Shown here: piece by piece, positions 16,029 to 37,004 of the stretch
How positions within the stretch are numbered: the stretch's first letter is position 1
How the letters are laid out: each line of letters begins with the position of its first letter
NCBI GenBank assembly: GCA_018000995.1
Contig: JAGNIU010000004.1
Span: forward strand, 62,001-126,000
DNA from: Bacteroidia bacterium
GTDB taxonomy: Bacteria > Bacteroidota > Bacteroidia > B-17B0 > Aurantibacillaceae
Direction: 5' to 3'
Length of the DNA stretch: 64,000 nucleotides
The notes under the pieces: model-generated
What the model was told of the DNA's origin: nothing
The model's database searches: none
The model's input: the letters and a program-made list of their open reading frames with translations, nothing else
Position numbers and translations under genes: made by a program

Positions 16029-16076
16029 TAGTTTAGGTTTTGGTACCCTAAAATTAACAAAAATTGTACCAAAAAC

Positions 16077-16104: not shown

Positions 16105-16124
16105 GTTAATATATTGTCAATTAA

Positions 16125-19100: not shown

Positions 19101-21251
19101 AGTAGCTTGAGCAGTACAACCATTAACTGAACTTTGATAAACTACTGTGTATGTACCAGCACCAGAACCAGTAGTGTTTTGATTATTTACACCACCGGTA
19201 ATTGAACCTCCTCCCGGAGCGGTCCATGTATAAGTACCACCACCTGTAGGAGAGCTATTTAAACTAACAGTACTTGTTGAACAAGTTACTGAGCCTGTTG
19301 CTGAAGCACCTACACCTGTAGGAGTTGTTGTATTAATTAATGCAGCTACAGTTGCAATGTTAGTACAACCATTTACTGCATCAGTAACTCTTACAGTATA
19401 AGTTCCTGCACCAGAACCTGTAGTATTTTGACTATTAACACCACCTGTTATTGAACTTCCACCCGGAGCTGTCCAAGTATAAGTAACACCTGAAGATGGT
19501 GTTGAGGTTAAAGTTATAGCAGTGTTATTACAAGTAATAGAACCAGATGTGCCTGCAGTTGGCGACGGGTTTACTGTATTTACTAAAGCTGCAACAGTAG
19601 CTTGCGCTGTACAACCATTAACTGCACTTTGTACACGAATTGTATATGTTCCAGCCCCTGAACCTGTAGTATTTTGATTATTGACACCTCCTGTAATTGA
19701 ACCCCCTCCTGGAGCAGTCCATGTATAAGTAACACCTGTTAAAGTGGTTGTTAAATTAATTGATGTATTGTTACAAGTTATAGAACCACTAGTTAAAGCA
19801 TTTAATCCTGCAGGTGCAACCGTATTTACATTGGCTGCAATTGTTGTATTTGTTGAACATCCATTCGCAGGATTTACAACTCGCACTGTATAAGTGCCTG
19901 GACCAGTCGCAGTAGTTGATTGAGAGTTTACACCTCCTGTTATTGAACTTCCACCCGGTGCAGTCCAAGTATAAGTCATACCAGCCGGTAAAGAACCTAA
20001 GCTAATTGCATTATTGGTACAAGTAATAGAACCGGTTGTAGAAACTGTTGGACTTGGAGCTACAGTATTGAAACCAACAGCAACCGTACTGGTTAATGAT
20101 GAACAAACACCTGAATTAACTGTTAAAGAATAAACTCCAGCAGTACCAACAGTAGGTGTTGCAGTTGTTCCGCCTCCTACTATACCTGGACCGCTCCAAC
20201 TATAAGTTCCGCCACCGGAACCGGCGAGAACTGTTGTAATATTGACACAAGTTAAAGATTGCGTGGATCCTGCATTTGCCACAGGAAGAGCGTTAACAGT
20301 TATTGTATTTGTAGTTGCATTACCACAAGTTGGAGTTATACCTACAGTGTAAGTAACAGGATATGTACCTGCACCAACTATTGAAGGACAAAAAGAAGTA
20401 CTTGAAACTCCAAGTGGTGCTGTAAAAGTTCCTCCTGCTGTTCCTGTAATTTGCGGAGGTAAATTTACACAAGGTCCGTTTGCACACATTGCAGTTGGAG
20501 TTGTCCAAGAAGAATTATAAGGATTTGTAATTGATATGGTTCTGGTTTGAACAATTGAACAACCATTTTGACTATTGAAAGAATAAGTAATTGTATAAAC
20601 ACCTTGAGCCATCTGATAGGTATCCAAATACATATCACCCGTATTTGCATTATAAGAAGCTGTTGGAGCTACTGCGGGAGAAACTGTATAGCCAGCTAAT
20701 CCGATTGCTGAGTTGGCAGGGATTGTAACAGTTTGACAACCTCCGGCTGTTCCGTTATTCCAAACACCACTTGCTAAAGGAGTACTATTATAACAACTGG
20801 CAACTGTATAGTTCATATTTCCTGCAATGTTTGTATTACATAAATTGTAACCATGAGATTGCGCAGGATCCATAAAAAACAAAGAAAATGTATATGTACT
20901 TGAGCTTGGTACAAAAGTATAACACGGTACAGGGAATGAATTACACAAACTAATAATCGGATTGTTTGTCCCTTGCCCAATTGCAATTGAGTTATTCGTT
21001 GCTGCATTTGCATTAGTTAAACCAACAATAATTCGGATACAAGGACTCGTACCTTGGTTACCCACAGCAAATTGGGTTGGACTAATATTAATTAAGTTTG
21101 CATAAGTACAAGAAATTACTGCTGACATGGCAGCACCTGTATTTGCATCGTAAACACCTAAACTTGGTGTTAAACAAGTCATTTGTGCGTTACCATTCCT
21201 AACAGAAAGTAATAAAGCAAAAAATAATGCGATTTTGTATATGTTTTTCAT
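16125..21251 (-). CDS. Giant Ig-repeat surface adhesin 2 with gliding-motility (T9SS type B) C-terminal domain
   Basis: 1708 residues. Signal peptide at the N-terminus (K-I-A-L-F-F-A-L-L-L-S-V-R-N-G-N-A-Q), a roughly 320-residue region unlike that of adhesin 1, then 15 Ig-like modules, a PKD-like domain (F-A-P-Q-V-V-N-F-T-N, F-T-W-T-F-G-D-G-N) and the same C-terminal domain (N-V-F-T-P-N-D-D-N-V-N-D-V-F, F-N-R-W-G-Q). Its last eight modules align one to one with those of adhesin 1, including the unusual module with C-T-V-V-W-T-G-G-V-C-A-G. It begins 8 bases after a small secreted-protein gene, with which it forms an operon. Cell-surface adhesion or gliding is inferred from the C-terminal domain. 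Confidence 0.92.
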   Translation of the reverse strand: MKNIYKIALFFALLLSVRNGNAQMTCLTPSLGVYDANTGAAMSAVISCTYANLINISPTQFAVGNQGTSPCIRIIVGLTNANAATNNSIAIGQGTNNPIISLCNSFPVPCYTFVPSSSTYTFSLFFMDPAQSHGYNLCNTNIAGNMNYTVASCYNSTPLASGVWNNGTAGGCQTVTIPANSAIGLAGYTVSPAVAPTASYNANTGDMYLDTYQMAQGVYTITYSFNSQNGCSIVQTRTISITNPYNSSWTTPTAMCANGPCVNLPPQITGTAGGTFTAPLGVSSTSFCPSIVGAGTYPVTYTVGITPTCGNATTNTITVNALPVANAGSTQSLTCVNITTVLAGSGGGTYSWSGPGIVGGGTTATPTVGTAGVYSLTVNSGVCSSLTSTVAVGFNTVAPSPTVSTTGSITCTNNAISLGSLPAGMTYTWTAPGGSSITGGVNSQSTTATGPGTYTVRVVNPANGCSTNTTIAANVNTVAPAGLNALTSGSITCNNTSINLTTTLTGVTYTWTAPGGGSITGGVNNQNTTGSGAGTYTIRVQSAVNGCTAQATVAALVNTVNPSPTAGTSGSITCNNTAITLTSTPSSGVTYTWTAPGGSSITGGVNSQNTTGSGAGTYTVRVTDAVNGCTNIATVAALINTTTPTGVGASATGSVTCSTSTVSLNSSPTGGGTYTWTAPGGGSITGGVNNQNTTGSGAGTYTVVYQSSVNGCTAQATAAVGFNTVAPTGISANTSGTVTCASTAINLGVTPTGLTYSWTAPAGSSITSGGTSSSATGSGGGTYSVIVTGTNGCSAPTAVIVANTNTTAPTQTAIASQSLTCSTSSVNITGNPSSGVLYSWLGTGIVGPANTQTVNVVISGNYTLVVTNTANSCTSSAVAVVGTNTTPPNALGSGSVSITCATPSVNLIGSASPSSCTVVWTGGVCAGATSYTASACSPGQYSMTVTNPANGCSSAAAVFTVVSNSNFPTATLANTGTITCINTSAQVVATTTASPVTYTWSGPGIVSGSSTPTINVNMGGVYTLTLTNLLNGCVSVITNSVTNDNAAVTPTTAASSTITCNTTTVNMTATVGAGTYTYNWSGPGIVGTNTLSSATSSLGGTYNVTVTNTTNGCVGTATLSVTSSTNVPTGVSINPASFTLSCATPTTALTATAVGASTYSWIAPATGAIISGATSATAGINGPGNYSVVVTGTNGCSAAAAIAAVSPNTLAPTFVLSNSSPSITCLTANPTVSVNITSTVGIGSYSWTPASGISGSATGSVVTFTTAGTYTGVITATNGCQSNAIVTVLSATNSPTFVAGTATASPLSCSNPTAIISPVYTPTTDITFVWSGPGIVGSTTGSSVAVNQNGTYSVIVTNTVTGCTSNSLTVIVVGTTIPPLLNVSSTSSVGLGCSPTNSTNVLTANATPTNVSYNWNTSATTPTILVSTAGVYTVTITDPATSCTTSVTYTVDNNTTVPTATSVANSVIPCGASTATLNGGSPDPGVTFSWTGPSIVSGSNTSTPVVDQPGTYILTVTNPTTGCTSTSTVTLINGVPTASFTPDVTTGFAPQVVNFTNLSSPSATVFTWTFGDGNGSSTTSPSNTYSVAGSYTVMMIASSGLCTDTAYAFITIEDGFSIEIPNVFTPNDDNVNDVFTIKSTGVKEIQLQVFNRWGQLMYDFTGAKAAWDGITSNGEKATDGTYFYFVIATGFDSTKEPVKKNGSLGLYR
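19160..19980. repeat. Near-identical Ig-module repeats in adhesin 2
   Basis: Four successive units of about 245 bases, with the shared T-W-T-A-P-G-G-G/S-S-I-T-G-G-V-N-coding stretch starting at about 19168, 19418, 19664 and 19906. They are close at DNA level to the repeats around 13450-14010 in the neighbouring gene, so the two loci could recombine. Confidence 0.72.
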
Positions 21252-23685: not shown

Positions 23686-24831
23686 TTACACGTCGGCCGA
23701 AATAATATTACGTTGAATAGCCGAAGTTCCAGAATACAATAACGAGGCGAAACTATCTCTGTATTCACGCTCAATTCCGGTTTCGATTAAATAGCCATAA
23801 GCGCCATAAATTTCCTGTAATTGCTTAATAGCATTCACTACATGTTCCGAAACAAAAAGTTTTGCAATTGAAGCACGCGTTAAAGCATTTTTAGGCTTTG
23901 TGTCAATGGCATAAGCAGCATCATACACTAAATTTTTTCCTGCATTTAAAATTGTTTTAATATCTGCGATTTTATGTTGGATGTTTTGAAATTCAAATAA
24001 GTTTTTATTGTTTAGCTTACGTTTTTTAGTAAATAAAACAGCTTTATCTAAAACTCTATCTAATTGTCCAACTAAAAAAGCACTCACCACTACTCTCTCC
24101 CAAATCATACTATTATTAAAAATTTGTCCGCCCGAACCCGGCTTTCCAATCATACAATCTTCATCAATCTCAAAATTATTGAACTTAATATCGCCCATTT
24201 GTGCAGTACGTAAGCCCATTTTATCTTTTACTTTGCTAATTTTAATTTCTTTTGCATCTGTTTTAACAATGAAACAAGAAACACCACCAAAAAATCCCTT
24301 TGTTTTGTCTGTTAAAGCATATACCACTAAAACATCAGCAACAGGCGAGTTAGTTATGTATCTTTTTTCTCCATTTATTATATAACTACTGCCTTTTTTT
24401 ACGGCAACTGACGACATATTGTAAACATCAGAACCGGCATTGTATTCAGTAATGGCATTAGCTGCAATCCACTGACCGGAAGCCATTTTTTTAAGGTACT
24501 TGTTTTTTTGTTCTTCACTTCCATAGAATGATAATGGAGAAACACAGGCTATTAAATGAGCGATAGAAGAAAAAATCATTCCATTATTTTCACAACCATA
24601 AGCTAAAGCTTCGTAAGCTACGCAGGTTTTAAGAGCGGAAAAACCTTTTCCTCCAAAACTTTCATCAGCCACCAAACCATGCATACCATGCTTTGAGAAA
24701 TGATTCCATAAACTCCTGTCAAAAAAATTATTTTTATCCTGTTCCATCATATCCTTTACGGGAAATGATTTTCCAACTTCATGAAAAGTATTGTAAATGG
24801 TTTTGTAGTTTTTTAATACGCCTAAAATCAT
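23686..24831 (-). CDS. Acyl-CoA dehydrogenase family flavoprotein (isovaleryl/long-chain type active site)
   Basis: 381 residues with the usual three-domain plan: helical N-terminus, FAD-binding middle (A-I-T-E-Y-N-A-G-S-D, Y-I-T-N-S, M-G-L-R-T-A-Q), helical C-terminus ending G-A-Y-G-Y-L-I-E-T-G-I-E-R-E-Y-R-D and Y-S-G-T-S-A-I-Q-R. The usual catalytic Glu in Y-E-G-T-S is Ser367 here. A Glu-Arg at 245 (I-W-E-R-V-V-V-S) occupies the place of the catalytic Glu of isovaleryl-CoA and long-chain acyl-CoA dehydrogenases, so the enzyme is probably active. It is divergent from a KASIII/ACP operon, and an acyl-carrier-bound substrate is an attractive guess. Confidence 0.88.
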   Translation of the reverse strand: MILGVLKNYKTIYNTFHEVGKSFPVKDMMEQDKNNFFDRSLWNHFSKHGMHGLVADESFGGKGFSALKTCVAYEALAYGCENNGMIFSSIAHLIACVSPLSFYGSEEQKNKYLKKMASGQWIAANAITEYNAGSDVYNMSSVAVKKGSSYIINGEKRYITNSPVADVLVVYALTDKTKGFFGGVSCFIVKTDAKEIKISKVKDKMGLRTAQMGDIKFNNFEIDEDCMIGKPGSGGQIFNNSMIWERVVVSAFLVGQLDRVLDKAVLFTKKRKLNNKNLFEFQNIQHKIADIKTILNAGKNLVYDAAYAIDTKPKNALTRASIAKLFVSEHVVNAIKQLQEIYGAYGYLIETGIEREYRDSFASLLYSGTSAIQRNIISADV

Positions 24832-24965: not shown

Positions 24966-25952
24966 ATGGGCCTTTTTATCGATAAAATTCGCATTCACCT
25001 TCCGGAAGAGGTTTTATCGAACACTCAACTTGCCAAGGAATTTAACATTACTGAAGCTGAAATTTTAAAGAGAACCGGAATAGAAAAACGTTATTTGGCG
25101 GCTAAAAACGAAACTGCTTCTGATTTGGCTTTTGTTGCTGCAAAAAAAATACTCGCTTCTGATCCGGATTTAAGTAGTAAAATTGATTTCCTTATTTTCT
25201 GTTCCGATTGCTTCGATTATATTGCCCCTGCTACTTCTTGCATTTTACAAGACCGATTAAAATTACCACAAACTACCGCTTGCATCGATTTACCGTATGG
25301 CTGCTCTGGTTTTGTTTATGGTTTAGGAATTGCCAACGGACTTTTACATAGCGGCATGGCTAAAACAATTTTATTCTTAACCTGTGATTCATCTACCAAA
25401 ACTTTAAATCCTAAGAACTTTGAGCAACGCAGTTTATTTAGCGATGGTGCTGCAGCTATTTTGTTGAGTAAAAATGATTCAACTCCTGCCAATAACTTTG
25501 TGTTTGGAACGGATGGTAGTGGCGCGCATGATTTATATATTGAAGGAAGCGCTTTTAGAACACCCTTAGATGAAAATTTTAAAAAAGAAAGTTGTGTTCC
25601 TTACGGCGAAATGGTTATGAATGGCGCTAATATTTTTTCGTTCGCACTTAAAATAGTGCCGACATTAATAAACGACGCTCTAAAAAAATGCAATTTAACT
25701 TTTGAAGATATAGATTTGTTTATTTTTCATCAGGCTAATGGTTTTATTTTGGAAACTTTGCGCCGCAAAATGAACATTCCAAAAGAAAAATTTTATACTA
25801 ACATAAAGGATTACGGAAATACTGTGGCCTCCACAATTCCTATAGCACTTTACACCGCCGAGCAGGAAAAAGTTCTTAAAAAAGGTATGAAAGTATTGAT
25901 AGCCGGCTTCGGCGTTGGAAATAGTTGGGCGGCAACTGTAATAAATTACTAA
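24966..25952 (+). CDS. 3-oxoacyl-ACP synthase III-like condensing enzyme, copy 1
   Basis: 328 residues with full KASIII (FabH-type) catalytic triad: Cys113 in Y-G-C-S-G-F-V-Y-G, His255 in F-H-Q-A-N, Asn285 in Y-G-N-T-V-A-S-T, and the C-terminal G-F-G-V-G glycine loop. It condenses an acyl-CoA primer with malonyl-ACP or, in specialised relatives, moves an acyl group. First gene of a six-gene operon with overlapping reading frames. Clearly different in sequence from copy 2, with which it shares the operon, so it is not the housekeeping fabH duplicated recently. An AT-rich 134-base region separates it from the divergent dehydrogenase. Confidence 0.92.
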   Translation: MGLFIDKIRIHLPEEVLSNTQLAKEFNITEAEILKRTGIEKRYLAAKNETASDLAFVAAKKILASDPDLSSKIDFLIFCSDCFDYIAPATSCILQDRLKLPQTTACIDLPYGCSGFVYGLGIANGLLHSGMAKTILFLTCDSSTKTLNPKNFEQRSLFSDGAAAILLSKNDSTPANNFVFGTDGSGAHDLYIEGSAFRTPLDENFKKESCVPYGEMVMNGANIFSFALKIVPTLINDALKKCNLTFEDIDLFIFHQANGFILETLRRKMNIPKEKFYTNIKDYGNTVASTIPIALYTAEQEKVLKKGMKVLIAGFGVGNSWAATVINY

Positions 25953-25960
25953 ATTTGAAT

Positions 25961-26197
25961 ATGCTTTTAGATGAATTTGTAAATAAACTGGAATCTGAAT
26001 TTGAAGATATGCCTAAAGGCACTTTAAAAGCTGATACTGATTACCGGAGTATAAAAGGTTGGAGCAGCATGCATGCCCTAATCATTATCGCTTTTATTGA
26101 TATTACGTTCAACATCACTTTAAATGGTACCGATTTAAAATCTACAAAAACCGTTAGTGATTTGTATAATTTGGTTCAACAAAAAAAATCAGCTTGA
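25961..26197 (+). CDS. Acyl carrier protein between two KASIII genes
   Basis: 78 residues from the ATG at 25961; the frame is open further upstream, inside the KASIII gene, but that extension has no ACP similarity. The phosphopantetheine site is G-W-S-S-M-H-A-L with Ser36 as the likely attachment residue; the Asp normally before it (D-S-L) is replaced by Ser. Helix I is acidic (E-S-E-F-E-D-M). It lies 8 bases after KASIII copy 1 and overlaps copy 2 by four bases, so it should carry the acyl chain for these two enzymes. Confidence 0.88.
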   Translation: MLLDEFVNKLESEFEDMPKGTLKADTDYRSIKGWSSMHALIIIAFIDITFNITLNGTDLKSTKTVSDLYNLVQQKKSA

Positions 26198-27249
26198 GTA
26201 CTTTTAAAACATCTCACGTAGCTATTAAAGGCATTGTATCTTGTGTGCCTAAAGAAGTAAAAAGCACTTTTGATTATTCGTATTTAAAACCTGAAGAACA
26301 AGAGTTGTTCTACAAAACTGTTGGTATTAAAGAACGCCGTGTGGCCAATGATAAAATTACCTGTAGCGATTTATGTCAGCAAGCCGCTGAATATTTATTC
26401 AACAACAACATTACCAAACCTGAGAATATTGATTTAATAGTTTTCGTTTCACAATCGCCCGACTATTTCTTACCATCCACTGCGGTCATTCTTCAAGATA
26501 AATTAAAATTAAAAAAAACAACATTAGCTTTTGATGTGACTTTAGGTTGCAGCGGTTATGTTTACGGATTAAGCATTGTTTCTAATTTTTTGCAAAGCGG
26601 ACAATTTAAACAAGCCTTATTGTTGTGTGGTGATAAATCTACCATTTCAACTTACGAAGAAGATAAAAGCGCCTACCCTTTATTTGGCGATGCTGGCACT
26701 GCTACTTTATTGGAATATGATTCTACAGCGCAAGACATGAATTTTGCTTTAAATAGCGATGGCAGTGGTAAAAACGCTATTATTATCGAACATGGTCATT
26801 CACGTCATCCTTACTCTGCTGAATCGGATATCATTACTGAATTAGAACCAGGCGTTAAGCGTGCCAAAAAACATTTAGCATTAAACGGGCAAGATATTTT
26901 TACGTTTGCTTTAAAAGAAGTAACTCCTAATGTTAATGAAACACTTCAATCAGCGAATAAAACTATTGCTGATATTGATTATTTCGTGATGCATCAAGCT
27001 AACAAACTAATTAACGAAACTGTCCGCAAAAAATTAGGAATTGATAAAGAAAAGTACCCTTATTCAATAGAACTTTTCGGAAATACGAGCTCAGCATCAA
27101 TACCTTTAACTATGTGTTACGCTTTAGAGTCTAAATTATTAAAAGAAAGTTTAAATTTGTTATTGTGCGGATTTGGCGTTGGATTATCATGGGGAAGTGT
27201 AATTTTAAGAACCAACCAACTTAAATGCGCCAAATTAATTGAGTTATGA
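26194..27249 (+). CDS. 3-oxoacyl-ACP synthase III-like condensing enzyme, copy 2
   Basis: 351 residues, starting at TTG in a TTGA overlap with the ACP stop. The triad is complete: Cys119 in L-G-C-S-G-Y-V-Y-G, His267 in M-H-Q-A-N, Asn297 in F-G-N-T-S-S-A-S. It ends G-F-G-V-G-L-S-W-G and has about 12 extra C-terminal residues running into the next gene (ATGA overlap). With two active-looking KASIII enzymes on one ACP, successive condensations or primer/extender division of labour are possible. Confidence 0.91.
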   Translation: MSTFKTSHVAIKGIVSCVPKEVKSTFDYSYLKPEEQELFYKTVGIKERRVANDKITCSDLCQQAAEYLFNNNITKPENIDLIVFVSQSPDYFLPSTAVILQDKLKLKKTTLAFDVTLGCSGYVYGLSIVSNFLQSGQFKQALLLCGDKSTISTYEEDKSAYPLFGDAGTATLLEYDSTAQDMNFALNSDGSGKNAIIIEHGHSRHPYSAESDIITELEPGVKRAKKHLALNGQDIFTFALKEVTPNVNETLQSANKTIADIDYFVMHQANKLINETVRKKLGIDKEKYPYSIELFGNTSSASIPLTMCYALESKLLKESLNLLLCGFGVGLSWGSVILRTNQLKCAKLIEL

Positions 27250-27989
27250 TTAGTTTAAAGGATAAAAACATTTTAATTACAGGCGCCTCTTCAGGTATTG
27301 GAGAAGCAACTGCTATTTTATGTGATTCGTTAGGTGCTAATGTAACTTTAACAGGAAGAAATGAATCTGCCTTAACAGAAACATCAAAGAAATTAAAAAA
27401 CAAAACCTCAATTCTTATTGCTGATTTAACGAGTCAAGAACAATTAACTGCATTGGTAACAAAATGCGGTAACCTTGATGGTTTAGTGAATTGCGCAGGA
27501 ATTGTAAAGCCATTACCGGTTAAATATATCCGTCAGAAAAACATTACTGAAATGTTTGATGCTAATTTTTCATCAGCCGTTTTATTGTGTAGCGAATTAA
27601 GTAGCGCCAAAAAATTAAACGAAAAAGCTTCTGTTATTTTTATTTCATCTATTTCTTCTCTTCATCCCTATATCGGCGGTTCATTATACAGCGCTTCAAA
27701 AGCAGCTTTAGAAGCGTTTTGTCGTTCGTTTGCCATTGAGCATGCTAATAAAAAAATAAGGGCGAATGTTATAGCACCCGCTTTAGTAAAGACAAAAATT
27801 TTTACTGAGACTGAGTTAGCAACTTCGGAGGAGGAAATGAAAAATTACGAAGCACAATATCCATTGGGTTTCGGTGAACCCGAAGATGTTGCCAATGCAA
27901 TTGCATTTTTATTATCACCGGCCTCTAAATGGATTACCGGAACTACTTTAAAAATGGATGGCGGACTATTATTAAGCAGCAAAAAATGA
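27246..27989 (+). CDS. SDR family oxidoreductase (FabG-like 3-oxoacyl-ACP reductase)
   Basis: 247 residues, classical short-chain dehydrogenase. NAD(P)-binding T-G-A-S-S-G-I-G, N-C-A-G, catalytic Ser in I-S-S-I-S-S, Tyr-x3-Lys in Y-S-A-S-K-A-A-L, and the C-terminal G-F-G-E-P-E-D-V-A-N-A-I-A-F-L-L-S-P ... T-G-T-T-L-K-M-D-G-G block typical of FabG-type enzymes. In this operon it most likely reduces the 3-oxoacyl-ACP product of the KASIII enzymes to a 3-hydroxyacyl-ACP. Both ends overlap neighbouring genes by four bases (ATGA), so it is translationally coupled. Confidence 0.92.
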   Translation: MISLKDKNILITGASSGIGEATAILCDSLGANVTLTGRNESALTETSKKLKNKTSILIADLTSQEQLTALVTKCGNLDGLVNCAGIVKPLPVKYIRQKNITEMFDANFSSAVLLCSELSSAKKLNEKASVIFISSISSLHPYIGGSLYSASKAALEAFCRSFAIEHANKKIRANVIAPALVKTKIFTETELATSEEEMKNYEAQYPLGFGEPEDVANAIAFLLSPASKWITGTTLKMDGGLLLSSKK

Positions 27990-28915
27990 ACATAGATTAT
28001 TCCATCATAATTCCTGCTTATCATGCAGAAACCAGTATCGAAAAGTTATACGATGCTTTAAAAACTTATTTTACTTCAAGTCAAAAAACATTTGAGGTTA
28101 TTTTTGTGGATGATGCTAGCGCCGATTCTACTTGGAAAGTTTTACAACAACTAAAGCAAACTCATAAAAACGTAAAGATTGTCCGCTTTGCTAAAAATTT
28201 CGGTCAGCATGCTGCCACGCTTTGTGGGTTTTCGTTTGCTAAAGGAAAGTTTGTTATTACAATGGATGATGATATGGAAATTCATCCTGATCAGATTTCA
28301 AAATTGATTGAAGAACAACAAAAAGGAGATTATGATGTTGTTTATGGTGAGTATAAAAAATTAAACCAACCCTTTTTCAGAGGACTATTTACTAAGTTCT
28401 ATAAATTCGGTTCTAAATTAGTGGAAGGTAAAAACAAAGGGAAGGGTTCTCCGTTTCGCCTTATTAAAACAGAATTAGCTCATAAACTTTCGGAAACTCA
28501 TCGCCATTTTGTTTTTATTGACGAATTGTTGTTATGGTACACAGCAAAAATTGAATTTATTCAGGTTAATCCAAATCCAAATTACATCCGTAAAGGTGGG
28601 TATTCTTTAGGAAGTTTATTTAAGATTACGAGTAACGTTGTTATGTTTTCATCGGCCTCACCTTTAAAATTGGTAACTAACCTCGGGATTTCTTTAGCTA
28701 CTATAAACTTTGTAATTGGTTCTTTCTATTTATTGAAGAAAACATTATTTAGAACACCTGTTCCTGGCTATACCTCGATAATTGTAAGTTTATTATTCTC
28801 TACAGGTTTAATTGTTTTAAGCATCGGCATTGTTGCACAATACATAAGTAAAATAATGCAGGACGTAAATAAAAAACCTTCCTACCATATTTCAGAAAAA
28901 TTTGCTGACGATTAA
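27986..28915 (+). CDS. Family 2 glycosyltransferase with two C-terminal membrane helices (DPM/GtrB-like)
   Basis: About 309 residues from the ATG at 27986 (ATGA overlap with the SDR). The GT-A domain opens S-I-I-I-P-A-Y-H-A-E-T-S, has V-D-D-A-S-A-D-S-T, N-F-G-Q-H-A-A, and the metal-binding M-D-D-D-M-E. Two hydrophobic segments (L-G-I-S-L-A-T-I-N-F-V-I-G-S and S-L-L-F-S-T-G-L-I-V-L-S-I-G-I) sit near the C-terminus. This is the plan of enzymes that load a sugar on undecaprenyl phosphate at the inner face of the membrane. It may supply the donor for a GT-C enzyme such as the one at 21740. Confidence 0.9.
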   Translation: MNIDYSIIIPAYHAETSIEKLYDALKTYFTSSQKTFEVIFVDDASADSTWKVLQQLKQTHKNVKIVRFAKNFGQHAATLCGFSFAKGKFVITMDDDMEIHPDQISKLIEEQQKGDYDVVYGEYKKLNQPFFRGLFTKFYKFGSKLVEGKNKGKGSPFRLIKTELAHKLSETHRHFVFIDELLLWYTAKIEFIQVNPNPNYIRKGGYSLGSLFKITSNVVMFSSASPLKLVTNLGISLATINFVIGSFYLLKKTLFRTPVPGYTSIIVSLLFSTGLIVLSIGIVAQYISKIMQDVNKKPSYHISEKFADD

Positions 28916-29519
28916 ACAATACGGCGTAACCTTAACCCGAATAACTTCTAACGACATAGAATTACTTCGGTATTGGCGGAATCAGCAATCCGTAAAAATG
29001 TATATGGATTACAGGGAATACATTAGCCCTAACATGCAGCAAAAGTGGTTCGAATCTGTCAATAACAAATTTAATTACTATTTTATTATTGAATTTGAAG
29101 GTAAAAAAGTGGGATTAATCAACGCCAAAAATTTCAGTTACAAAAATGGTTTTGGCGAAGGCGGTATTTTTATTTGGGACGCTGCTTATATAAATTCATT
29201 TGCCGCAGTATTTAGCACACTTGCCTTATTGAATTTTGTATTTCATAAAGTAAAATTGTGCGAAACTTCACATGCTCGTATATTAAAAGATAACGACAGA
29301 GCCATTCACTACAATCAATTAATTGGGTACAAACTTTCTTCAGGACAAGAAAACGAATACAATCAATTATATGTTTTAACGCTTGAAGATTATTTAAAGA
29401 ATGGCGCTAAACTTAACAAAGCTGCAGAAATGCTGAATAATGGTAATGGAGAACTAACTTTTTCAGGAACTGTGAGTGAAAATAATCTTGACGAAATAAA
29501 TAAACTACTTAAGAATTAA
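28902..29519 (+). CDS. GNAT acyltransferase, PseH-like (amino-sugar N-acyltransferase candidate)
   Basis: 205 residues starting at TTG, overlapping the glycosyltransferase by 14 bases. The N-terminus L-T-R-I-T-S-N-D-I-E-L-L-R-Y-W-R-N-Q-Q-S-V followed by I-S-P-N-M-Q-Q-K-W-F-E-S-V resembles the PseH family, which acetylates nucleotide-linked 4-amino sugars. Residues 160-205 form a polar tail beyond the usual GNAT end. As the last gene of the KASIII/ACP operon, it is the natural candidate to move the finished acyl group from ACP to an amino sugar; that role is inference. Its end overlaps the convergent hydroxylase gene by 11 bases. Confidence 0.82.
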   Translation: MLTIKQYGVTLTRITSNDIELLRYWRNQQSVKMYMDYREYISPNMQQKWFESVNNKFNYYFIIEFEGKKVGLINAKNFSYKNGFGEGGIFIWDAAYINSFAAVFSTLALLNFVFHKVKLCETSHARILKDNDRAIHYNQLIGYKLSSGQENEYNQLYVLTLEDYLKNGAKLNKAAEMLNNGNGELTFSGTVSENNLDEINKLLKN

Positions 29520-30195
29520 ACATTCTGAGAGGGAATTCTCCTTTAGCGAAAGCCTCCAACCACTTTTCTTTCGGTACCATCGACAGTAAAAAAGGATCAT
29601 CCATATTCTCAACTTTATATTTCGAAATTTGTTGTCCTGTATAACCCCAAAGTGGATTGGGAATATCAAACATTAAAACGGCGCGGTTCTCATCCGATTT
29701 ATTCCAGGCCTCATGCTCAAACGAATCGTCAAAAATAATTAGTTTACCTTCTTCCCACTCTTTTGTTTCATCACCTACTCTTAATGCACAATTATGTCCG
29801 GGTGGCACAATTAAAGGCAAATGACAACGCAACACCATTTTAGTATACCCTTTGTGAGGTTGAATATGGGTATGCGGTTTTAAAAAAGAATAATCGCAGG
29901 AAATAATTTCAGGAATGGAATAAATAAGTTCGGCTGTTTTCGGACAAAGTGCGGCGTTACCCGGAAATTTCATGTTAAAGAAAATAAAAGAGAAAACTTT
30001 CCATGCTTTTTTATTCTCAGAACTAACATAATCAGGAAACGTTTCGAGCCATTGATTCTCTCTATCCTTATCTAATAATTCAAGCAATTCATTTTTAATT
30101 ACACTAAAATTCTTTGTAAGGACATCCAAAAAGGGAAAATCCTTTGTATCGTAAAAGAATTTTGGATTCTTGTCGGTTATTTCGTGTTTACTCAA
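29509..30195 (-). CDS. Aspartyl/asparaginyl beta-hydroxylase family dioxygenase (LpxO-related fold)
   Basis: 228 residues, Fe(II)/2-oxoglutarate type. Iron and cosubstrate residues are visible in the order I-Q-P-H-K-G, L-R-C-H-L-P-L, F-D-D-S-F-E-H-E-A-W-N and R-A-V-L-M-F-D, the AspH_beta core. The family includes peptide Asp/Asn hydroxylases and LpxO, which hydroxylates lipid A acyl chains. It ends the Dlt-like operon, 8 bases after the adenylation gene, so hydroxylation of the transferred acyl or amino-acyl group is conceivable. No membrane segment is evident, unlike LpxO. Confidence 0.88.
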   Translation of the reverse strand: MSKHEITDKNPKFFYDTKDFPFLDVLTKNFSVIKNELLELLDKDRENQWLETFPDYVSSENKKAWKVFSFIFFNMKFPGNAALCPKTAELIYSIPEIISCDYSFLKPHTHIQPHKGYTKMVLRCHLPLIVPPGHNCALRVGDETKEWEEGKLIIFDDSFEHEAWNKSDENRAVLMFDIPNPLWGYTGQQISKYKVENMDDPFLLSMVPKEKWLEAFAKGEFPLRMFNS

Positions 30196-30203
30196 TTTTC
30201 TAA

Positions 30204-31640
30204 CTAAATAAAATTTTCTTTCAGTTTTTGAATATCTACTTTATGATTCAAGCTCATCGGGAATTTCTCCATTACTATAATACTATCGGGTAACATATAA
30301 GATGGGAGCTTGCTCAGAATGAAAGTTCGTAGTTGAAGCTCGCTAATTTCAGTTGCACTTTCAACAAAAGCAATAATTTCAATTTTCGGATTATCTATTG
30401 CAATCACTTCGCAATTTGAAATACGTCCAAAATCCATCAATGTATTTTTAATTTCACTTAACTCAATTCTAAACCCGTTACGTTTAATCATGCTGTCCCC
30501 TCTTCCAACAAATTCTAAATTTCCATTAGAAAGTTTTTTCACTTTATCACCGGTATTATAAACTGTTGAGACTTTTAATATCTGAACACCATATTCATCG
30601 ATAGTTGCTTTCATTAAGAGTTTTCCCTTATACGTAAGCTCTGATGATTTATTCAACTTAACATGAGTTGTATAACAAGGTTTACCAATTGGCACATTTA
30701 TATCTTTTGCTTTTACCTTTCCAAAATCAATTTTATGATAAGTACAAACATTAGTTTCAGTTGGTCCGTATAAATTATAGAACGCCGCTTTCTTAAAATG
30801 TTTTTTCAGTTCCTTAACTAAATCATAACTCAGTTGCTCACCTGCAATTAAAATTAATTTCACAAACTTAAAATCGTATTTAGTTAGCTGGCCGGTTTGT
30901 AATAACAATTTTAAATAAGAAGGCGTTGTGTACAAAGCTTCTATTTTATTTACTGAAATGTACTTTGAAAATAATCTTGTATTTGAAATGGAGTTTTGTT
31001 TAGGCAAATACAATTGCTTTTTGGCCGACAAAGGAAAAAACAAATCAAAAACCGATAAATCAAAATTTAACGGGGCGACAGAAACAAACCTTGAAATTTT
31101 ATATTTTAAAAACTCTTTATTACACCACTTTAAAAACGCTGTCATACTATCAGAACAATGAACAATTCCTTTCGGGAAACCGGTAGAGCCTGACGTAAAT
31201 AATATGTAAGCCAAATTTTTAGGGTAAACTCTTGCAGGAAGATTCGTTTTAATAAAAGTATAATCTTCATTAATAATATGTTCTTCGTAAGATGTAACTG
31301 TGTTTAAAACCTCACTGGCTTTTGGTAAATATTTGTTTTCGATAATACACCCTTGTAAACCCGAATGTTTTAAAATAAACTGAATTCGCACGGCAGGCCA
31401 TTCCGGATTAATTGGCAAGTATCCATTTTCCGTATTAAGAATTGCGAAAACAAATGAAACAAGTGCAGTATTCTTATCTCCCCAAACTGCAATTGGCTGG
31501 TTAATTATATGCGGACAAATACTATGTAACCAAGATTTAAATCCATCACACCTTACTTGTAATTCAGAATAATTTATGGTTCTGTTATCTTCATCTAACA
31601 GAAATTCAGTATTGCCACCGGCAATAAGACGTTTGGTAAT
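30204..31640 (-). CDS. Adenylation enzyme, DltA-like, with probable ATT start
   Basis: 478 residues if begun at ATT 31640. Core motifs in order: G-Y-L-P-I-N-P-E-W-P-A (A2), L-F-T-S-G-S-T-G-F-P-K-G (A3), N-F-D-L-S-V-F-D-L (A4, as in DltA), Y-N-L-Y-G-P-T-E-T-N (A5), Y-N-T-G-D-K-V (A7), F-V-G-R-G-D-S-M-I-K-R-N-G-F-R-I-E-L (A8) and a terminal N-H-K-V-D with the A10 lysine. The A4 Asp favours an alpha-amino acid substrate. The first ATG/GTG/TTG in frame is TTG 31418, which would cut into A2 and delete A1. The preceding 74 codons are open and encode recognisable N-terminal sequence (T-I-N-Y-S-E-L, I-A-V-W-G-D-K). ATT overlaps the carrier-protein stop as TAATT. It should charge the adjacent carrier protein. 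Confidence 0.82.
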   Translation of the reverse strand: MTKRLIAGGNTEFLLDEDNRTINYSELQVRCDGFKSWLHSICPHIINQPIAVWGDKNTALVSFVFAILNTENGYLPINPEWPAVRIQFILKHSGLQGCIIENKYLPKASEVLNTVTSYEEHIINEDYTFIKTNLPARVYPKNLAYILFTSGSTGFPKGIVHCSDSMTAFLKWCNKEFLKYKISRFVSVAPLNFDLSVFDLFFPLSAKKQLYLPKQNSISNTRLFSKYISVNKIEALYTTPSYLKLLLQTGQLTKYDFKFVKLILIAGEQLSYDLVKELKKHFKKAAFYNLYGPTETNVCTYHKIDFGKVKAKDINVPIGKPCYTTHVKLNKSSELTYKGKLLMKATIDEYGVQILKVSTVYNTGDKVKKLSNGNLEFVGRGDSMIKRNGFRIELSEIKNTLMDFGRISNCEVIAIDNPKIEIIAFVESATEISELQLRTFILSKLPSYMLPDSIIVMEKFPMSLNHKVDIQKLKENFI

Positions 31641-31897
31641 TATTTTGCTAATTTCTGAGATAAAAATTCGGCTGTTATATTAATAGTATCTAAATTATCT
31701 ACACTTACTTCATGTGCTTCCAACTCAACATTCAATTTTTCTTCTAAATGATTTATTAAGCCTAAAACCACAATAGAATCCAACAACCTAGAACTAATCA
31801 AGGCGGTGTCGTTTGTGAAATCAGCAGGCACATCACCTCTAAATAATTTTTCCGTTACATAATCTCTTACTTCTTTAATAATATCATTCTTATTCAT
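31640..31897 (-). CDS. Acyl/aminoacyl carrier protein, DltC-like
   Basis: 85 residues with phosphopantetheine Ser41 in L-L-D-S-I-V-V-L, the standard D-S-I/L context, and helix I-N-H-L-E-E-K-L after it. Compact, acidic, single domain. It overlaps the upstream MBOAT gene by 8 bases (ATGAATAA) and the following adenylation gene by one base, so the three proteins should be made together. Position and partners make it the equivalent of DltC; the acid it carries is unknown. Confidence 0.88.
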   Translation of the reverse strand: MNKNDIIKEVRDYVTEKLFRGDVPADFTNDTALISSRLLDSIVVLGLINHLEEKLNVELEAHEVSVDNLDTINITAEFLSQKLAK

Positions 31898-34310
31898 AAA
31901 CTTTTACATTTAAAGGTTCATTAATTATTTTAAAAACACCGCCGGCAATAAGTATATGTCCTAAAGTATTTGGGTGCGGATCAACATTGCTTACTGTTAT
32001 TTGCTCTTTAGGATAATTGGAGTAAATGTTTCTAAGCGAAAAAGTTTCGAAACCAGCCTTCTTAGCCAATTCCCGTAAATTGTTTATTTTGCTGTTATCT
32101 ATTATCACTTCATTAGTAGTAGGTAAAAATACCCAAACCGGTTTTATACTATTTGCTTTACAAGTTGCAACCATTTTTTTATAAAGGCTATAAAACAAAT
32201 CGTTTATGAATGGTTTAAGTCTGTATTTAATTTCGAGTGCCGACATTTTCTTTTCTACTCCAGCTTTATCAATCATAAAGTTAGTAAAATCATCGTCAAA
32301 AGTAAATCCCTCTTTTATGAGCCTTGTCACATTGTTTGTTAAGCGCTGCTCTTCACCTGTATGGGAGAATAAAATAGCCATATCAGGCTTAAAATGAAGC
32401 GTCTTATGCTCGAGAACGTGAGCATTTTGGATAGCCGAATACATTGGAACTCCAAAATTAAGAAGCTCGTACTTTTTACCGCTATATTTATTTAGCCATT
32501 CTTCAGCAACACTTTCAAAAACTTCATTGTTATTTACACCGGTGCCCATTTCATAAGATGCGCCTAAAATAGCTATACGGTTTACGTGGCCAGCCTTAAC
32601 TAAATCGTATTCCTTATCCCTTAACCCAAATTTATTTGTGCTGATAATGGTTCCATTAAAATCAATAGCTTGAGAAGGCATTAGTTCCTGTCGCAATACA
32701 GTTTGACTTGCAAAACTTATTTTTGAAAGTGGACTCACGCGCATGTTGCCCTCTTTTCCCATTTTCGAATTGCTGTTGGAAGCCATTAAACGGGTATAAT
32801 ATCCTTCTTCATTACTCTCGTGCTGATTAACTGTTAGGTAATCAGGTGTAAATACCATTTGTAAGAAATTATTTTTTTTAGAATTATGTAAAAAATATAA
32901 ACTCAATAACACAATTGGAAAACCAAATTTAAATATGGAAATAATCTTGTTTTGCTTATCAATACTTGTTGTAATAGCCCTTTTAATAACAATTCCAACA
33001 CAAAACATTAACCAATATATCCCTAAAAAATACAATGCTGTAACAGAGAATTTACTTCCTTGCTTCAATATAAAAAGCACCTCACCAACACTTTCGGTAG
33101 TCCACACGAAAAACAAAAAGTTCATTACTACTTGTACAAACAAAACCGATAACGACAATTTCAGAAACGAAATAAATCCCTTTTCAGTCTTTGGTGTTTC
33201 TTTTAAGGATTTTTCAAATCTATAACCACTATAAAACACAAGGAAGCCTAGCAATAACCAATACAAAACATCCGTCATTTTAAATTTAAAATAGCCGGTT
33301 GACCAATATAATTGATAGAAGTGAAAGAAACATGAGGACATGAAGGTGATGACAATAAGAAGAATTCCTTTTCCGGCAAACTTCGATTTCTTTAACTTAA
33401 AGAAAAGAGGGTAATAAATTATTTTAAGAATGAAATCACGCCAAAAACGATTTACATCTTTCCAATAATCACGAAAGCTAGAAGCAAGAGGAAAGAATCC
33501 AAAAGAAGATGGTAAGCTAATATCAAACATGCTCAAAAAACCAATCGAAAAAATAAATACGCCAACCAATTTAAAAAGTATTACACTTTTACTTAATGCA
33601 AAGAGCATAAAGTCAGACAAATTATTGATTGCATAAATAGAAGGGCTGAAATTTTGGTTTACTACCTTATAGATTACAAATAATAGAAGTCCTGTTACAA
33701 ACTGAGTAATGGCTTTATCGTAATTTGTAAAACCTTCTTTTACATTTCGTCCGTTTAAAAAGTGTTTGTAATCCACAATGGGCATTATTGGAAAAAACAA
33801 TTGTTGGAAAGAGAAAAAGTAGGTCCACGAAGCTGCTTTGTTCTTAATGATGTTATTGTACTTAAATTCATAAAGCACAATAATAGATTTAAACATAAGA
33901 ACAGAAGCTAAAAAAGGAATGATGAAATTTATAGTCCCAAACTGAATTCTGTTACTTTGAATTAAATACATCCCAATAAAAACCAAAAGCATAAATAGCA
34001 ATTTATACATCCATTTTAAACCGGAAATTAGAACAGCAGATATAATGGAAAGAAATGCAAATAAGATAATAGCGTTTATAAAATCAAACACATAAAAACT
34101 TATGGTTAAAAATAATAGTGGGAATATAAACGGTTTAAATTTTAAGTCGATTACTGCATTCATGAAGAATAAAGGCAAGACAACTAAAGACAGATTTAAA
34201 ATATCCTGACCTTTATCGAAACTAATGACTTTAGCGAGAAAAAAAACGACCAGGTAAACAATACCATATATAAAAAGCTTTACCGCTTTATTGTTTATAA
34301 ACTGAGTCAT
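31890..34310 (-). CDS. MBOAT membrane acyltransferase fused to a C-terminal SGNH hydrolase-like domain
   Basis: 806 residues. Residues 1-480 hold a dozen or more membrane helices with MBOAT features: Y-W-K-D-V-N-R-F-W-R-D-F-I-L-K-I-I-Y-Y-P-L at 282-301 and the invariant His330 in F-F-H-F-Y-Q-L-Y-W. After a soluble linker, residues 577-806 form an SGNH domain: Ser585 in I-L-G-A-S-Y-E-M-G (block I, with A instead of D before Ser), N-F-G-V-P (block II), D777 and H779 in D-P-H-P-N (block V). This reads as DltB and a DltD-like SGNH protein in one chain. It would accept an acyl group from the carrier protein and pass it to an extracytoplasmic target. Target and acyl group are unknown. Confidence 0.87.
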   Translation of the reverse strand: MTQFINNKAVKLFIYGIVYLVVFFLAKVISFDKGQDILNLSLVVLPLFFMNAVIDLKFKPFIFPLLFLTISFYVFDFINAIILFAFLSIISAVLISGLKWMYKLLFMLLVFIGMYLIQSNRIQFGTINFIIPFLASVLMFKSIIVLYEFKYNNIIKNKAASWTYFFSFQQLFFPIMPIVDYKHFLNGRNVKEGFTNYDKAITQFVTGLLLFVIYKVVNQNFSPSIYAINNLSDFMLFALSKSVILFKLVGVFIFSIGFLSMFDISLPSSFGFFPLASSFRDYWKDVNRFWRDFILKIIYYPLFFKLKKSKFAGKGILLIVITFMSSCFFHFYQLYWSTGYFKFKMTDVLYWLLLGFLVFYSGYRFEKSLKETPKTEKGFISFLKLSLSVLFVQVVMNFLFFVWTTESVGEVLFILKQGSKFSVTALYFLGIYWLMFCVGIVIKRAITTSIDKQNKIISIFKFGFPIVLLSLYFLHNSKKNNFLQMVFTPDYLTVNQHESNEEGYYTRLMASNSNSKMGKEGNMRVSPLSKISFASQTVLRQELMPSQAIDFNGTIISTNKFGLRDKEYDLVKAGHVNRIAILGASYEMGTGVNNNEVFESVAEEWLNKYSGKKYELLNFGVPMYSAIQNAHVLEHKTLHFKPDMAILFSHTGEEQRLTNNVTRLIKEGFTFDDDFTNFMIDKAGVEKKMSALEIKYRLKPFINDLFYSLYKKMVATCKANSIKPVWVFLPTTNEVIIDNSKINNLRELAKKAGFETFSLRNIYSNYPKEQITVSNVDPHPNTLGHILIAGGVFKIINEPLNVKVYE

Positions 34311-34381: not shown

Positions 34382-35221
34382 ATGTCAACCGTAAAGAAGC
34401 AATTTCTTTTTGTACACATTCCTAAAACAGCGGGCACATCGTTTGCACTTATTTTAGCCAAACGTTTTAAAGGTTTACGTAAACTTCAGTTTTATTCACC
34501 CAAAGAGCGTGAAAGGTATCCAAAAGTTGAGGCTTCAGAAAAAGAGAATTATGATTTGATTTACGGGCACATTCCTTTTATTGGAAATCAGGGTTTAAAA
34601 AGAGGAATTGAATATTTTACATTTTTCAGAACACCCCGCGAGCGCCTGTTATCTCAATACAAACACATAAAAGGCGACGGCAATCACATTATTAAAAGCA
34701 AAGTTAATGTTGATGAATATTCTTTAAAAGACTTTTTAAAACAAGGCATCGTAAAGAACTTTGATAACTTAATGACACGTTATTTGTCAGGGAATATTAG
34801 TAAAGATTATCTAAAAATTAATAAAGAAGATTTAGAATTAGCTATAAAAAACTTTGATGCGAATTTCAATATTTTTGGTCTGACCGAGAAATTTGATGAA
34901 AGTCTTGTTTTATTATCAGATTATATGAATTGGCCTCCGCTTTTGTATGTGCGCGAGAACAAATCTTCCTTTAAAATAAAACCCGAGGAATTTGATGAAG
35001 AAACTGAGCGTTTAATACAAGCTTGTAATCAATTTGATGATGTTTTATTTAAACATGCCAAAACGAAATTTGACAAATTACTAGAATCGAAAAAAGATTT
35101 TGTAGAGAAAGGCGTAAAAGAATTAAGAGAAGGCAGCGAAAAAAACAGACGCTCTATTTTATTCAAAAACAAAATTAATTTACTTTATGCCTACTGCAGA
35201 CAGGTATTAGCCAGAACATGA
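34382..35221 (+). CDS. Sulfotransferase (family 2-like, PAPS-dependent)
   Basis: 279 residues. The N-terminus F-L-F-V-H-I-P-K-T-A-G-T-S-F is the 5'-phosphosulfate-binding loop of carbohydrate sulfotransferases, and Y-F-T-F-F-R-T-P-R-E-R-L-L-S-Q-Y matches the 3'-phosphate-binding R-x-P-x-x-R segment. No signal peptide, so it acts in the cytosol on a sugar or lipid-linked precursor. First of a three-gene coupled unit (ATGA overlap with the next gene), divergent from the MBOAT operon by 71 bases. The acceptor is unknown. No PAPS-synthesis gene is in the window. Confidence 0.87.
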   Translation: MSTVKKQFLFVHIPKTAGTSFALILAKRFKGLRKLQFYSPKERERYPKVEASEKENYDLIYGHIPFIGNQGLKRGIEYFTFFRTPRERLLSQYKHIKGDGNHIIKSKVNVDEYSLKDFLKQGIVKNFDNLMTRYLSGNISKDYLKINKEDLELAIKNFDANFNIFGLTEKFDESLVLLSDYMNWPPLLYVRENKSSFKIKPEEFDEETERLIQACNQFDDVLFKHAKTKFDKLLESKKDFVEKGVKELREGSEKNRRSILFKNKINLLYAYCRQVLART

Positions 35222-36066
35222 GCGACGAGAAAGTATTGATACCTCCTCCACTTTTTCCTATAAGTAAAAAACGCTTATTGATGCAATACATGCGTTGGTT
35301 ACCGGCTAAATTGGGTTTAATAAATAAAACGGCTTTTCTTTTTCAGATAAAAAAAATCAATCCCGACGATATTTTTCTGGTATCCTTTCCAAAATCAGGT
35401 AATACCTGGTTACGGTTTGTAATTTCATATCTAAAACACGGCACTTCAAAAACAATTACGTTTAATGATTTAGAGTCTTTTGTTCCTGATGTTTATGTAG
35501 CAAAAGATACAATTGATGCTCAGTTAAGCGAACGCATTATAAAAACCCACGATATTTATTTTGAGGGCTATCCCAAGGTAATTTATATTTACCGCGATTA
35601 CAGAGACGCGCTTGTATCCTATTATCATTTTGTGACCTCATATAATCATTTCAAAGGGTCCTTTTCTGAATTTATTAGGAGTAACATTGTTTTAATGCAT
35701 GGCAGTTGGAAACAACATATAAAAGCCATGGAAAAATTTAGAGCGCAACATCCGGATAAAATTTGTGTGTTATCATACGAATCCTTATTAACCGATTTTG
35801 AAGGTAACGTTAAACGTTTGGCAGAGTTTATTGGCGTTAAACAGGCTATTAATTGGGAGGAATTAAAAGCAAAGACTTCATTTAATGAACTTAAAAATAA
35901 CGAAAACGAACATGGTAGTCGGTTTAAGAGTAGTACCAAAAATAATTTTATCCGTCAGGGAAAAGCCGGTACCTGGAAAGACCATTATTCGGAGGAAGAT
36001 TTGAACTATTTATACTCCGATAAAGAATTGGTATCTTTAATGACTAAATTAGGTTACACTATTTAA
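35218..36066 (+). CDS. Sulfotransferase (Sulfotransfer_1 type, PAPS-dependent)
   Basis: 282 residues. 5'-phosphosulfate loop V-S-F-P-K-S-G-N-T-W-L-R, catalytic-type His in K-T-H-D, 3'-phosphate site Y-I-Y-R-D-Y-R-D-A-L-V-S-Y, and C-terminal F-I-R-Q-G-K-A-G-T-W-K-D-H (the R-K-G-x-x-G-D-W-K-D-like loop). It belongs to a different sulfotransferase subfamily from its upstream neighbour, so the pair is not a duplication; two separate sulfation steps are likely. Its stop overlaps the next start as TAATG. Confidence 0.92.
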   Translation: MSDEKVLIPPPLFPISKKRLLMQYMRWLPAKLGLINKTAFLFQIKKINPDDIFLVSFPKSGNTWLRFVISYLKHGTSKTITFNDLESFVPDVYVAKDTIDAQLSERIIKTHDIYFEGYPKVIYIYRDYRDALVSYYHFVTSYNHFKGSFSEFIRSNIVLMHGSWKQHIKAMEKFRAQHPDKICVLSYESLLTDFEGNVKRLAEFIGVKQAINWEELKAKTSFNELKNNENEHGSRFKSSTKNNFIRQGKAGTWKDHYSEEDLNYLYSDKELVSLMTKLGYTI

Positions 36067-37004
36067 TGCTAAGCTTTGCACATATAATTAATGGGGTTTC
36101 CGAACAGGAGAATAAGGAGTTGTATGAAGTTCAGAAACTGACATTAGCTTCTTTTATTAATGCAAATAACTATTCTGAAGGAAGCATAAACATTAAACAA
36201 TACATTTGCTATCATAAAAACCATCACATCAATATTGATTCTTCCTTTCATGCTCTTCCTCAACTTGAAAAAAGCATTTTAGATATAGGGAATTTTAGCA
36301 ACAATAGAGCTTTACCTTTATTAAAAGATATTTTAGAATTGGTGTATAATAATTCTGATGCAGAGTATATTATTTATTCGAATGCTGATATAGGTTTGAT
36401 GCCACAGTTTTATAATGCTATTGTGGATTATATTAAAAGCGGGCACGACGCTATTGTGATTAATCGCAGACGTATAAAAAGCACTTTAAATAAAGCCGAA
36501 GATTTAGATAAAATTTACAGTGAAGTTGGTAAAGATCATATTGGTTATGATATGTTTATTTTTAAAAGAAGTTTATTCCCGAAATTTATTTTAAATAATA
36601 CTTGTATTGGCATTCCTTTTGTAGGAAACGATTTGTTTTACAATTTATTTTGCTTTGCCGAAAAACCGGTATTGCTCACCGACAAACACCTAACTTTTCA
36701 TATTGGTTTAGAATTATTGAAAGATTGGGGAAGTAATGAATTAAAAAAACACAATTACAAAGAATTCAGAAAAACTACAAAAGCTTTATTACCGTATATT
36801 GATATTACAAAGTTTCCCGGGGCGGAATTAAATATTTTTAAACGCCATTTCAAATGGTTAATGAACCCAACTTTAAGTTATTCTGAACTTTGTATTTCGG
36901 ATTTAAAACAATTAGGGAAGAAACGCGATAGAAAAATCTACGACCCTAATTATAAAAAGCAAAGTTATTACGAGTGGTTAATTAAGTATATCAACTTTGA
37001 TTAG
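36066..37004 (+). CDS. Unknown protein, possible GT-A glycosyltransferase
   Basis: 312 residues, not firmly recognised. The segment Y-I-I-Y-S-N-A-D-I-G-L-M-P-Q-F-Y (residues about 100-115) looks like the metal-binding region of a GT-A fold (N-A-D-I-G in place of D-x-D), preceded by a conserved-looking N-N-R-A-L-P-L-L-K. No signal peptide or membrane segment. It is the third gene of the sulfotransferase operon (1-base TAATG overlap), so a role in building or modifying the sulfated glycan is a reasonable guess only. Confidence 0.7.
   Translation: MLSFAHIINGVSEQENKELYEVQKLTLASFINANNYSEGSINIKQYICYHKNHHINIDSSFHALPQLEKSILDIGNFSNNRALPLLKDILELVYNNSDAEYIIYSNADIGLMPQFYNAIVDYIKSGHDAIVINRRRIKSTLNKAEDLDKIYSEVGKDHIGYDMFIFKRSLFPKFILNNTCIGIPFVGNDLFYNLFCFAEKPVLLTDKHLTFHIGLELLKDWGSNELKKHNYKEFRKTTKALLPYIDITKFPGAELNIFKRHFKWLMNPTLSYSELCISDLKQLGKKRDRKIYDPNYKKQSYYEWLIKYINFD

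Follow-up and report, generated by a model that had tools for sequence, protein, structure and literature searches.

The genomic stretch considered here is a window of 64,000 nucleotides from the Bacteroidia bacterium assembly GCA_018000995.1 (contig JAGNIU010000004.1, positions 62,001 to 126,000; a genome of 3.61 Mb in 77 contigs), and it contains genes that probably encode a pyrrole-acyl export and transfer system for decoration of the cell surface, a reading suggested with fair confidence by sequence comparisons and a structural model. Four of the genes concerned are packed closely on the minus strand between positions 34310 and 29509 and cover a fused MBOAT-SGNH protein (31890-34310; 806 residues), hereafter designated as MBSG, a carrier protein (31640-31897; 85 residues), a stand-alone adenylation enzyme predicted to be an L-proline-[carrier protein] ligase (30204-31601) and a Fe/2-oxoglutarate dioxygenase of the family PF05118 (29509-30195), the genes for MBSG and the carrier overlapping by 8 bases. 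An initial annotation made from the DNA alone had described them as a Dlt-like system in a phylum lacking teichoic acids; both the tight arrangement and the overall plan—ligase, carrier, MBOAT and SGNH—were borne out by gene reading and family searches. As a grouping, however, the four genes are incomplete without a fifth one (23686-24831, minus strand), the predicted L-prolyl-[carrier protein] dehydrogenase, whereas the dioxygenase lies outside the conserved set; the order of the other three is conserved. The dehydrogenase, which defines the chemistry and is located 5.4 kb from the ligase, was missed at that stage and surfaced through synteny with relatives.

Concerning the ligase, it matches PF00501 (2.4e-47), carries the motif FDLSVFD and reaches 237 bits against TIGR01733 and 208 bits against the DltA models. 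The earlier label of a DltA-like adenylation enzyme holds for the AMP-binding family and its motif, but not for the specificity, since its pocket is of the proline-ligase kind. With the PltF code read from the alignment of the ligase to PltF (6o6e), the pocket DLFYLALVC is identical to DLLYLALVC of PltF in eight of nine positions, while only four of nine agree with DLMTLCTVA of DltA (3dhv) and five differ; the core region scores 100 bits against PltF, compared with 74 against DltA. In the alignment with DltA, the ligase has Ala at the place of a Cys, the residue found in DltA and AlmE at the pocket position called 301 (PMC11253843). The pattern D-[LI]-x-Y-x-A-L-V-C is kept in 44 of 48 related ligases (a few being duplicates from one genome), and the enzyme of one relative (locus L034) is identical to PltF in all nine positions. 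The enzyme is therefore predicted to be an L-proline ligase, the pocket residues speaking against a DltA-like specificity for D-alanine; the specificity prediction returned an amino-acid code and no sign of an enzyme activating only coenzyme A substrates. A plasmid search with the ligase retrieved only matches resembling nonribosomal peptide synthetases (NRPS), all below 60% identity.

The start of the ligase deserves a comment. No ATG, GTG or TTG is present near the position needed, the frame being open to 31679, and the likely start is CTG at 31601, which aligns with TTG of two relatives (L029 and L030). Between 31601 and 31679, in-frame ATA/ATT codons that are kept in four species overlap the stop of the carrier gene. 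A frameshift fusion of carrier and ligase was considered and rejected in favour of CTG initiation because the junction shows no recognisable slippery heptamer and the TTG of the relatives lines up with the start. The carrier itself possesses the D-S-I phosphopantetheine site reported before (Asp40-Ser41-Ile42; Ser codon 31775-31777), with Ser41 invariant in seven orthologues; its match to PF00550 is weak, and carrier models of NCBIfam also match. Among the latter is ACP_for_OlsHI (1.1e-19), but a link to ornithine lipids was dismissed, since the dehydrogenase locus of Singulisphaera acidiphila contains nothing like OlsH, a GH3-like enzyme (PMC12493201).

The flavoenzyme encoded at 23686-24831 belongs to the acyl-CoA-dehydrogenase family, its best solved match being the prolyl-ACP (acyl carrier protein) dehydrogenase AnaB (4irn; 4.2e-84) and its best NCBIfam models PigA (1.1e-103) and RedW (7.6e-88). 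It has the AnaB-type Glu245 within W-E-R, a catalytic residue conserved in AnaB and Bmp3 (PMC10849742), and a Ser where Glu376 is usual (YSGTS, not YEGTS). This WER/YSGTS signature occurs in nearly all of the relatives' dehydrogenases, including the homologues inside the operon: L029 and L030 have an acyl-CoA dehydrogenase between the ligase and the dioxygenase, and L034 has the dehydrogenase side by side with carrier and ligase. A carrier, a proline ligase and a FAD dehydrogenase form the known trio for pyrrolyl thioesters (PMC10849742), and the enzyme is predicted to be the partner needed to complete the set and to define its chemistry. In relatives, these genes are often accompanied by a flavin halogenase family, which matches PltA and Mpy16 among other PDB entries and in many members contains WxWxIP; the substrate of PltA is a pyrrolyl-carrier (PMC6165268). 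The source genome encodes a homologue (53%, with GWLWVIP) on contig C19 (L146:9186-10556), where it adjoins genes resembling gcpE/ispG and those of phenylacetate degradation.

As for MBSG, the description of an MBOAT and an SGNH domain in one chain proved right, the call of the former being based on structure, with Pfam silent. The Pfam and NCBIfam scans of the protein gave no MBOAT match, and the sequence model does not place it in PF03062; a PF03062 search of the source genome retrieved six other MBOATs without MBSG, and PF13813 weakly matched one of 57 relatives. In the AlphaFold model built from a 57-sequence alignment (mean predicted local distance difference test, pLDDT, 87.2), residues 31-416 match DltB (8jem; Z 21.9 over 361 residues), with PORCN and HHAT ranking behind it, and residues 518-796 match SGNH proteins, with CgnD (Z 20.6) followed by EstA and TesA. 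Because the fold match is joined by a profile-profile match to the six canonical MBOATs of the source genome (97.6% probability), MBSG is, as judged from the model, a distant member of the MBOAT superfamily despite the absence of a Pfam hit.

The MBOAT half contains His330 (codon 33321-33323); its DltB-like core is followed by two further helices, then by Gly503-Tyr504-Tyr505 (Tyr codons 32796-32801) and finally by the SGNH domain with Ser585 (codon 32556-32558), Asp777 and His779 (codon 31974-31976). Conservation over 96 MBSG relatives is complete for W283, H330, Q333, D347, Y504, Y505, N559, R578 and S585, while D777 is kept in 88 and H779 in 94 of them, the remainder being partly gaps. The distance from the tyrosine pair to the SGNH serine is 71-96 residues, and the GYY motif is missing from 11 stand-alone SGNH relatives. 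FxYxxF was not found in MBSG, where the internal GYY—in a GYYE context—may take its place; the ordinary MBOATs of the source genome end in FIYFQF. In PatA-type MBOATs, two extra helices precede a Tyr motif carrying the acyl group (PMC12148441). From the sequences compared, GYYE appears as a characteristic of this type of transferase, and the invariant Gly-Tyr-Tyr would, by analogy with DltX and PatA, be the natural candidate for an acyl-shuttle tyrosine.

The gene-order search showed that the arrangement is not unique to the source genome. A scan of the genome collection revealed 79 loci with MBSG in Bacteroidota (including Rhodothermales), Gemmatimonadota, Verrucomicrobiota, Myxococcota, Deltaproteobacteria as formerly defined, Acidobacteria, Planctomycetota, Chloroflexota and Krumholzibacteriota. 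In at least eight phyla the genes run in the order MBOAT-SGNH, carrier, prolyl ligase, prolyl dehydrogenase, in many cases with the PltA-related flavin halogenase behind them. Cultured bacteria with the set include Phaeodactylibacter xiamenensis, Lewinella cohaerens, Planktosalinus lacus and Singulisphaera acidiphila. Within the stretch covered, 29 of the 79 loci have carrier, ligase and dehydrogenase along with MBSG, and 14 of these also encode the halogenase family; 12 further loci, several at contig ends, have the ligase and no dehydrogenase in reach, and of 23 MBSG genomes searched for want of a nearby dehydrogenase, 17 have a prolyl-type one elsewhere. Among 60 relatives of the source genome, ligase and prolyl dehydrogenase are present in the same six genomes; for MBSG as for the halogenase family, the count is five of these six plus one other (G004); the co-occurrence (Fisher p 2e-8 and 6e-6) was calculated ignoring kinship, all of them belonging to one genus.

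Several loci depart from this pattern. In planctomycetes MBSG and ligase stand together with the dehydrogenase elsewhere, and in Singulisphaera acidiphila (L112:9767-15224) the MBOAT is split from two SGNH-GYYE proteins, in which GYYE is placed after a hydrophobic N-terminal segment; the proline ligase comes next, no carrier gene was detected beside the cassette and the dehydrogenase is encoded elsewhere in the genome. Eight loci (L046, L047, L051, L064, L067, L074, L075 and L078) exhibit two to four tandem MBSG genes, as if a single carrier pool served several transferases with different acceptors. In L122:2532-5833 (genome G002), carrier, ligase and dioxygenase lie beside a sulfotransferase and the MBSG gene is missing from that place. 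The set from Roseivirga (L081:8285-12340) has carrier, ligase and MBSG in the same set order and a ligase pocket ALFYCAQVC; no prolyl-type dehydrogenase was found in its genome, those examined being all of the YEGTS type. It may export another amino acid and serves as an internal control, since the differing pocket coincides with only YEGTS-type dehydrogenases among those examined.

In the proposed mechanism, the ligase would activate L-proline with ATP and load it onto the phosphopantetheine of the carrier, after which the flavoenzyme would oxidise the carrier-bound prolyl thioester to the pyrrole-2-carboxyl group; in many relatives, the halogenase encoded next door would halogenate the pyrrole ring. 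At the cytoplasmic face, the MBOAT half would use His330 to accept the acyl group from the carrier and pass it across the inner membrane to a tyrosine of MBSG, most likely Tyr504 or Tyr505, and the SGNH half (Ser585-Asp777-His779) would then place it as an ester on an extracytoplasmic acceptor, most probably a glycan. The comparisons establish the protein families, the proline-type pocket, the signature of the dehydrogenase, the modelled fold, the residues that do not vary and the conservation of the linkage; the four activities, the pyrrole product in the source organism, the shuttle tyrosine and the acceptor are what we infer. On the plus strand beside the export genes, two sulfotransferases and a GT-A-like protein, GTx (34382-37004), were identified by family searches and reading of the relatives' loci, all being frequent neighbours of the export genes in Bacteroidota; such glycosyltransferases and sulfotransferases point to a sulfated surface glycan as a possible acceptor. 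More tentatively, and as a possibility we would rather doubt than defend, the system might represent a widespread envelope modification, in which the outer glycan of members of many phyla is coated with pyrrole-2-carboxyl or chloro/bromo-pyrrole-2-carboxyl esters by natural-product enzymes and a single-chain, carrier-fed MBOAT-shuttle-SGNH protein, resulting in a halogenated cell surface.

It should be pointed out that a number of observations weigh against the pyrrole-acyl export system. The dehydrogenase scores under the curated cut-offs of NCBIfam (PigA 347 versus 500, RedW 295 versus 650) and in the source genome is separated from the ligase by another module, the halogenase-like gene being on a different contig, unlinked to the cassette. 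Some MBSG loci or genomes show no ligase or dehydrogenase, most of them being incomplete metagenome-assembled genomes. With regard to the shuttle, canonical MBOAT partners have FxYxxF rather than GYYE, and the split-gene planctomycetes carry GYYE on the SGNH protein, so the motif could be a part of the SGNH domain.

The exported group could alternatively be proline itself or a partly oxidised pyrroline, with the dehydrogenase performing a two-electron oxidation or acting elsewhere. AnaB, the nearest solved structure, reportedly catalyses just such an oxidation in anatoxin biosynthesis, and some loci have ligase and carrier without the dehydrogenase in the locus stretch; the best family models, PigA and RedW, are nevertheless those of pyrrole makers, a prolyl-type dehydrogenase is encoded at another site in most genomes that have none nearby, and the co-located halogenase family includes the pyrrolyl-S-carrier halogenases PltA and Mpy16, which together render this option rather improbable. 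A somewhat greater, still low probability is assigned to an alternative in which the pyrrolyl or halopyrrolyl group ends up on a small molecule for export, for example a glycolipid or natural product: natural-product clusters are where the pyrrole trio is known to occur, ABC transporters and methyltransferases lie near some relatives, and lipids and peptides can be targets of MBOAT acylation. The SGNH partners of MBOATs, on the other hand, typically target envelope polymers (PMC12148441), and the loci contain glycosyltransferases and sulfotransferases, with no assembly line of NRPS or polyketide synthase type seen beside the cassette. A true Dlt-type system, in which a surface polymer receives D-alanine or some other small amino acid, would agree with the DltA-DltC-DltB-DltD plan, the good scores with the DltA family models and DltB as the closest fold to the MBOAT half; it is considered very improbable in view of the pocket, with Ala for Cys and five of nine residues unlike DltA, and of the conserved partner, a prolyl dehydrogenase, which is not part of Dlt systems.

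Finally, the dioxygenase could be a working part of the system, hydroxylating the carrier-bound or transferred acyl group. The assignment to the AspH/LpxO (also OlsC) family made in the initial annotation is sound (PF05118, 6.4e-47; 159.7 bits versus a curated cut-off of 22.6), and the gene follows, on the same strand, directly after the ligase (window, L028, L122) or after the dehydrogenase (L029, L030). Distribution and gene order, however, speak against a role as a component of the export system, leaving this alternative with a small probability. Orthologues of at least 50% identity are present in many genomes of the family without export genes; in the six loci of such relatives that were read, the dioxygenase is convergent to the GNAT gene ending a KAS-ACP-KAS-SDR-GT2-GNAT block, while in L031, L032 and L050 it stands beside GNAT, apart from the export operon. 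The opposite case is G001, where the export genes are present and no orthologue of the dioxygenase was found. Since the dioxygenase travels with this block without export genes, and G001 shows the reverse, the gene is, from these distributions, assigned to the neighbouring KAS-GNAT module, and the four-gene set first described is the junction of two modules. In the window, family searches and block conservation define the block on the plus strand (24966-29519) as KAS III, an ACP-like protein, KAS III, SDR, a family-2 glycosyltransferase and a PseH-like GNAT. It resembles modules making 3-hydroxyacyl groups for amino sugars, and it probably makes a short 3-hydroxyacyl group for, and attaches it to, an amino sugar; the dioxygenase may hydroxylate that group. 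Farther away (10656-21251), there are two very long repeat-rich surface proteins of 1790 and 1708 residues with gliding-type C-termini.

The layouts listed in the literature consist of an MBOAT with a separate SGNH protein or of AT3-SGNH fusions, the non-Dlt MBOAT pathways working without a carrier (PMC12148441, 2025). Searches of the open-access literature turned up neither an account of an MBOAT-SGNH fusion accompanied by proline or pyrrole genes nor one of pyrrole-2-carboxylate on a bacterial glycan. If the pyrrole-acyl export system is real, a heteroaromatic and sometimes halogenated substituent would join the known surface modifications in both uncultured and cultured lineages, its predicted chemical marker being pyrrole-2-carboxylate freed by mild base, and MBSG would offer a single-chain model for the passage of an acyl group from MBOAT via tyrosine to SGNH.

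With the Dlt system (DltA, DltC, DltB, DltX and DltD) it shares the DltB-fold MBOAT with a catalytic His and, as predicted, the ligase-loaded carrier, the passage of the acyl group across the membrane and its transfer by SGNH, but differs in the proline pocket, the added prolyl dehydrogenase, the fusion of MBOAT and SGNH in one chain and the Gram-negative hosts; a separate DltX was not seen at the locus, where very small open reading frames were not searched. The AlmEFG system of lipid A glycylation in Vibrio also employs a Dlt-like ligase and a carrier for envelope modification in a Gram-negative bacterium; it uses glycine and the soluble acyltransferase AlmG, with no MBOAT or SGNH. PatA/PatB, AlgI/AlgJ/AlgX and WssH/WssI have in common with MBSG the MBOAT core, the extra helices, the Tyr motif and, as predicted, the SGNH transfer to an envelope polymer, yet they are separate proteins with acetyl-CoA and FxYxxF, in contrast to the one chain, GYYE and carrier-protein donor observed or predicted here. 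The AT3-SGNH fusions OatA and OafB likewise combine transmembrane acyl transfer and a finishing SGNH domain in a single chain, their membrane half being, however, AT3 (PF01757) instead of MBOAT and their donor acetyl-CoA. Thiotemplated pyrrole biosynthesis (PltF/PltL/PltE, PigI/PigG/PigA, RedM/O/W, Bmp and AnaB/C/D) possesses the same discrete carrier, the L-proline ligase with the same pocket, the prolyl-carrier dehydrogenase with the AnaB-type Glu and—as in the relatives here—a flavin halogenase of the PltA kind, but the known routes feed soluble natural products, whereas here the partner is the membrane-bound MBOAT-SGNH protein. The parts—Dlt, the pyrrole trio and MBOAT-SGNH pairs—are thus known, while their combination into a carrier-fed single-chain MBOAT-SGNH coupled to pyrrole synthesis seems not to have been described previously; the machineries of pyrrole antibiotic biosynthesis and of envelope acylation, studied in separate fields, appear joined in one system conserved in at least eight phyla.

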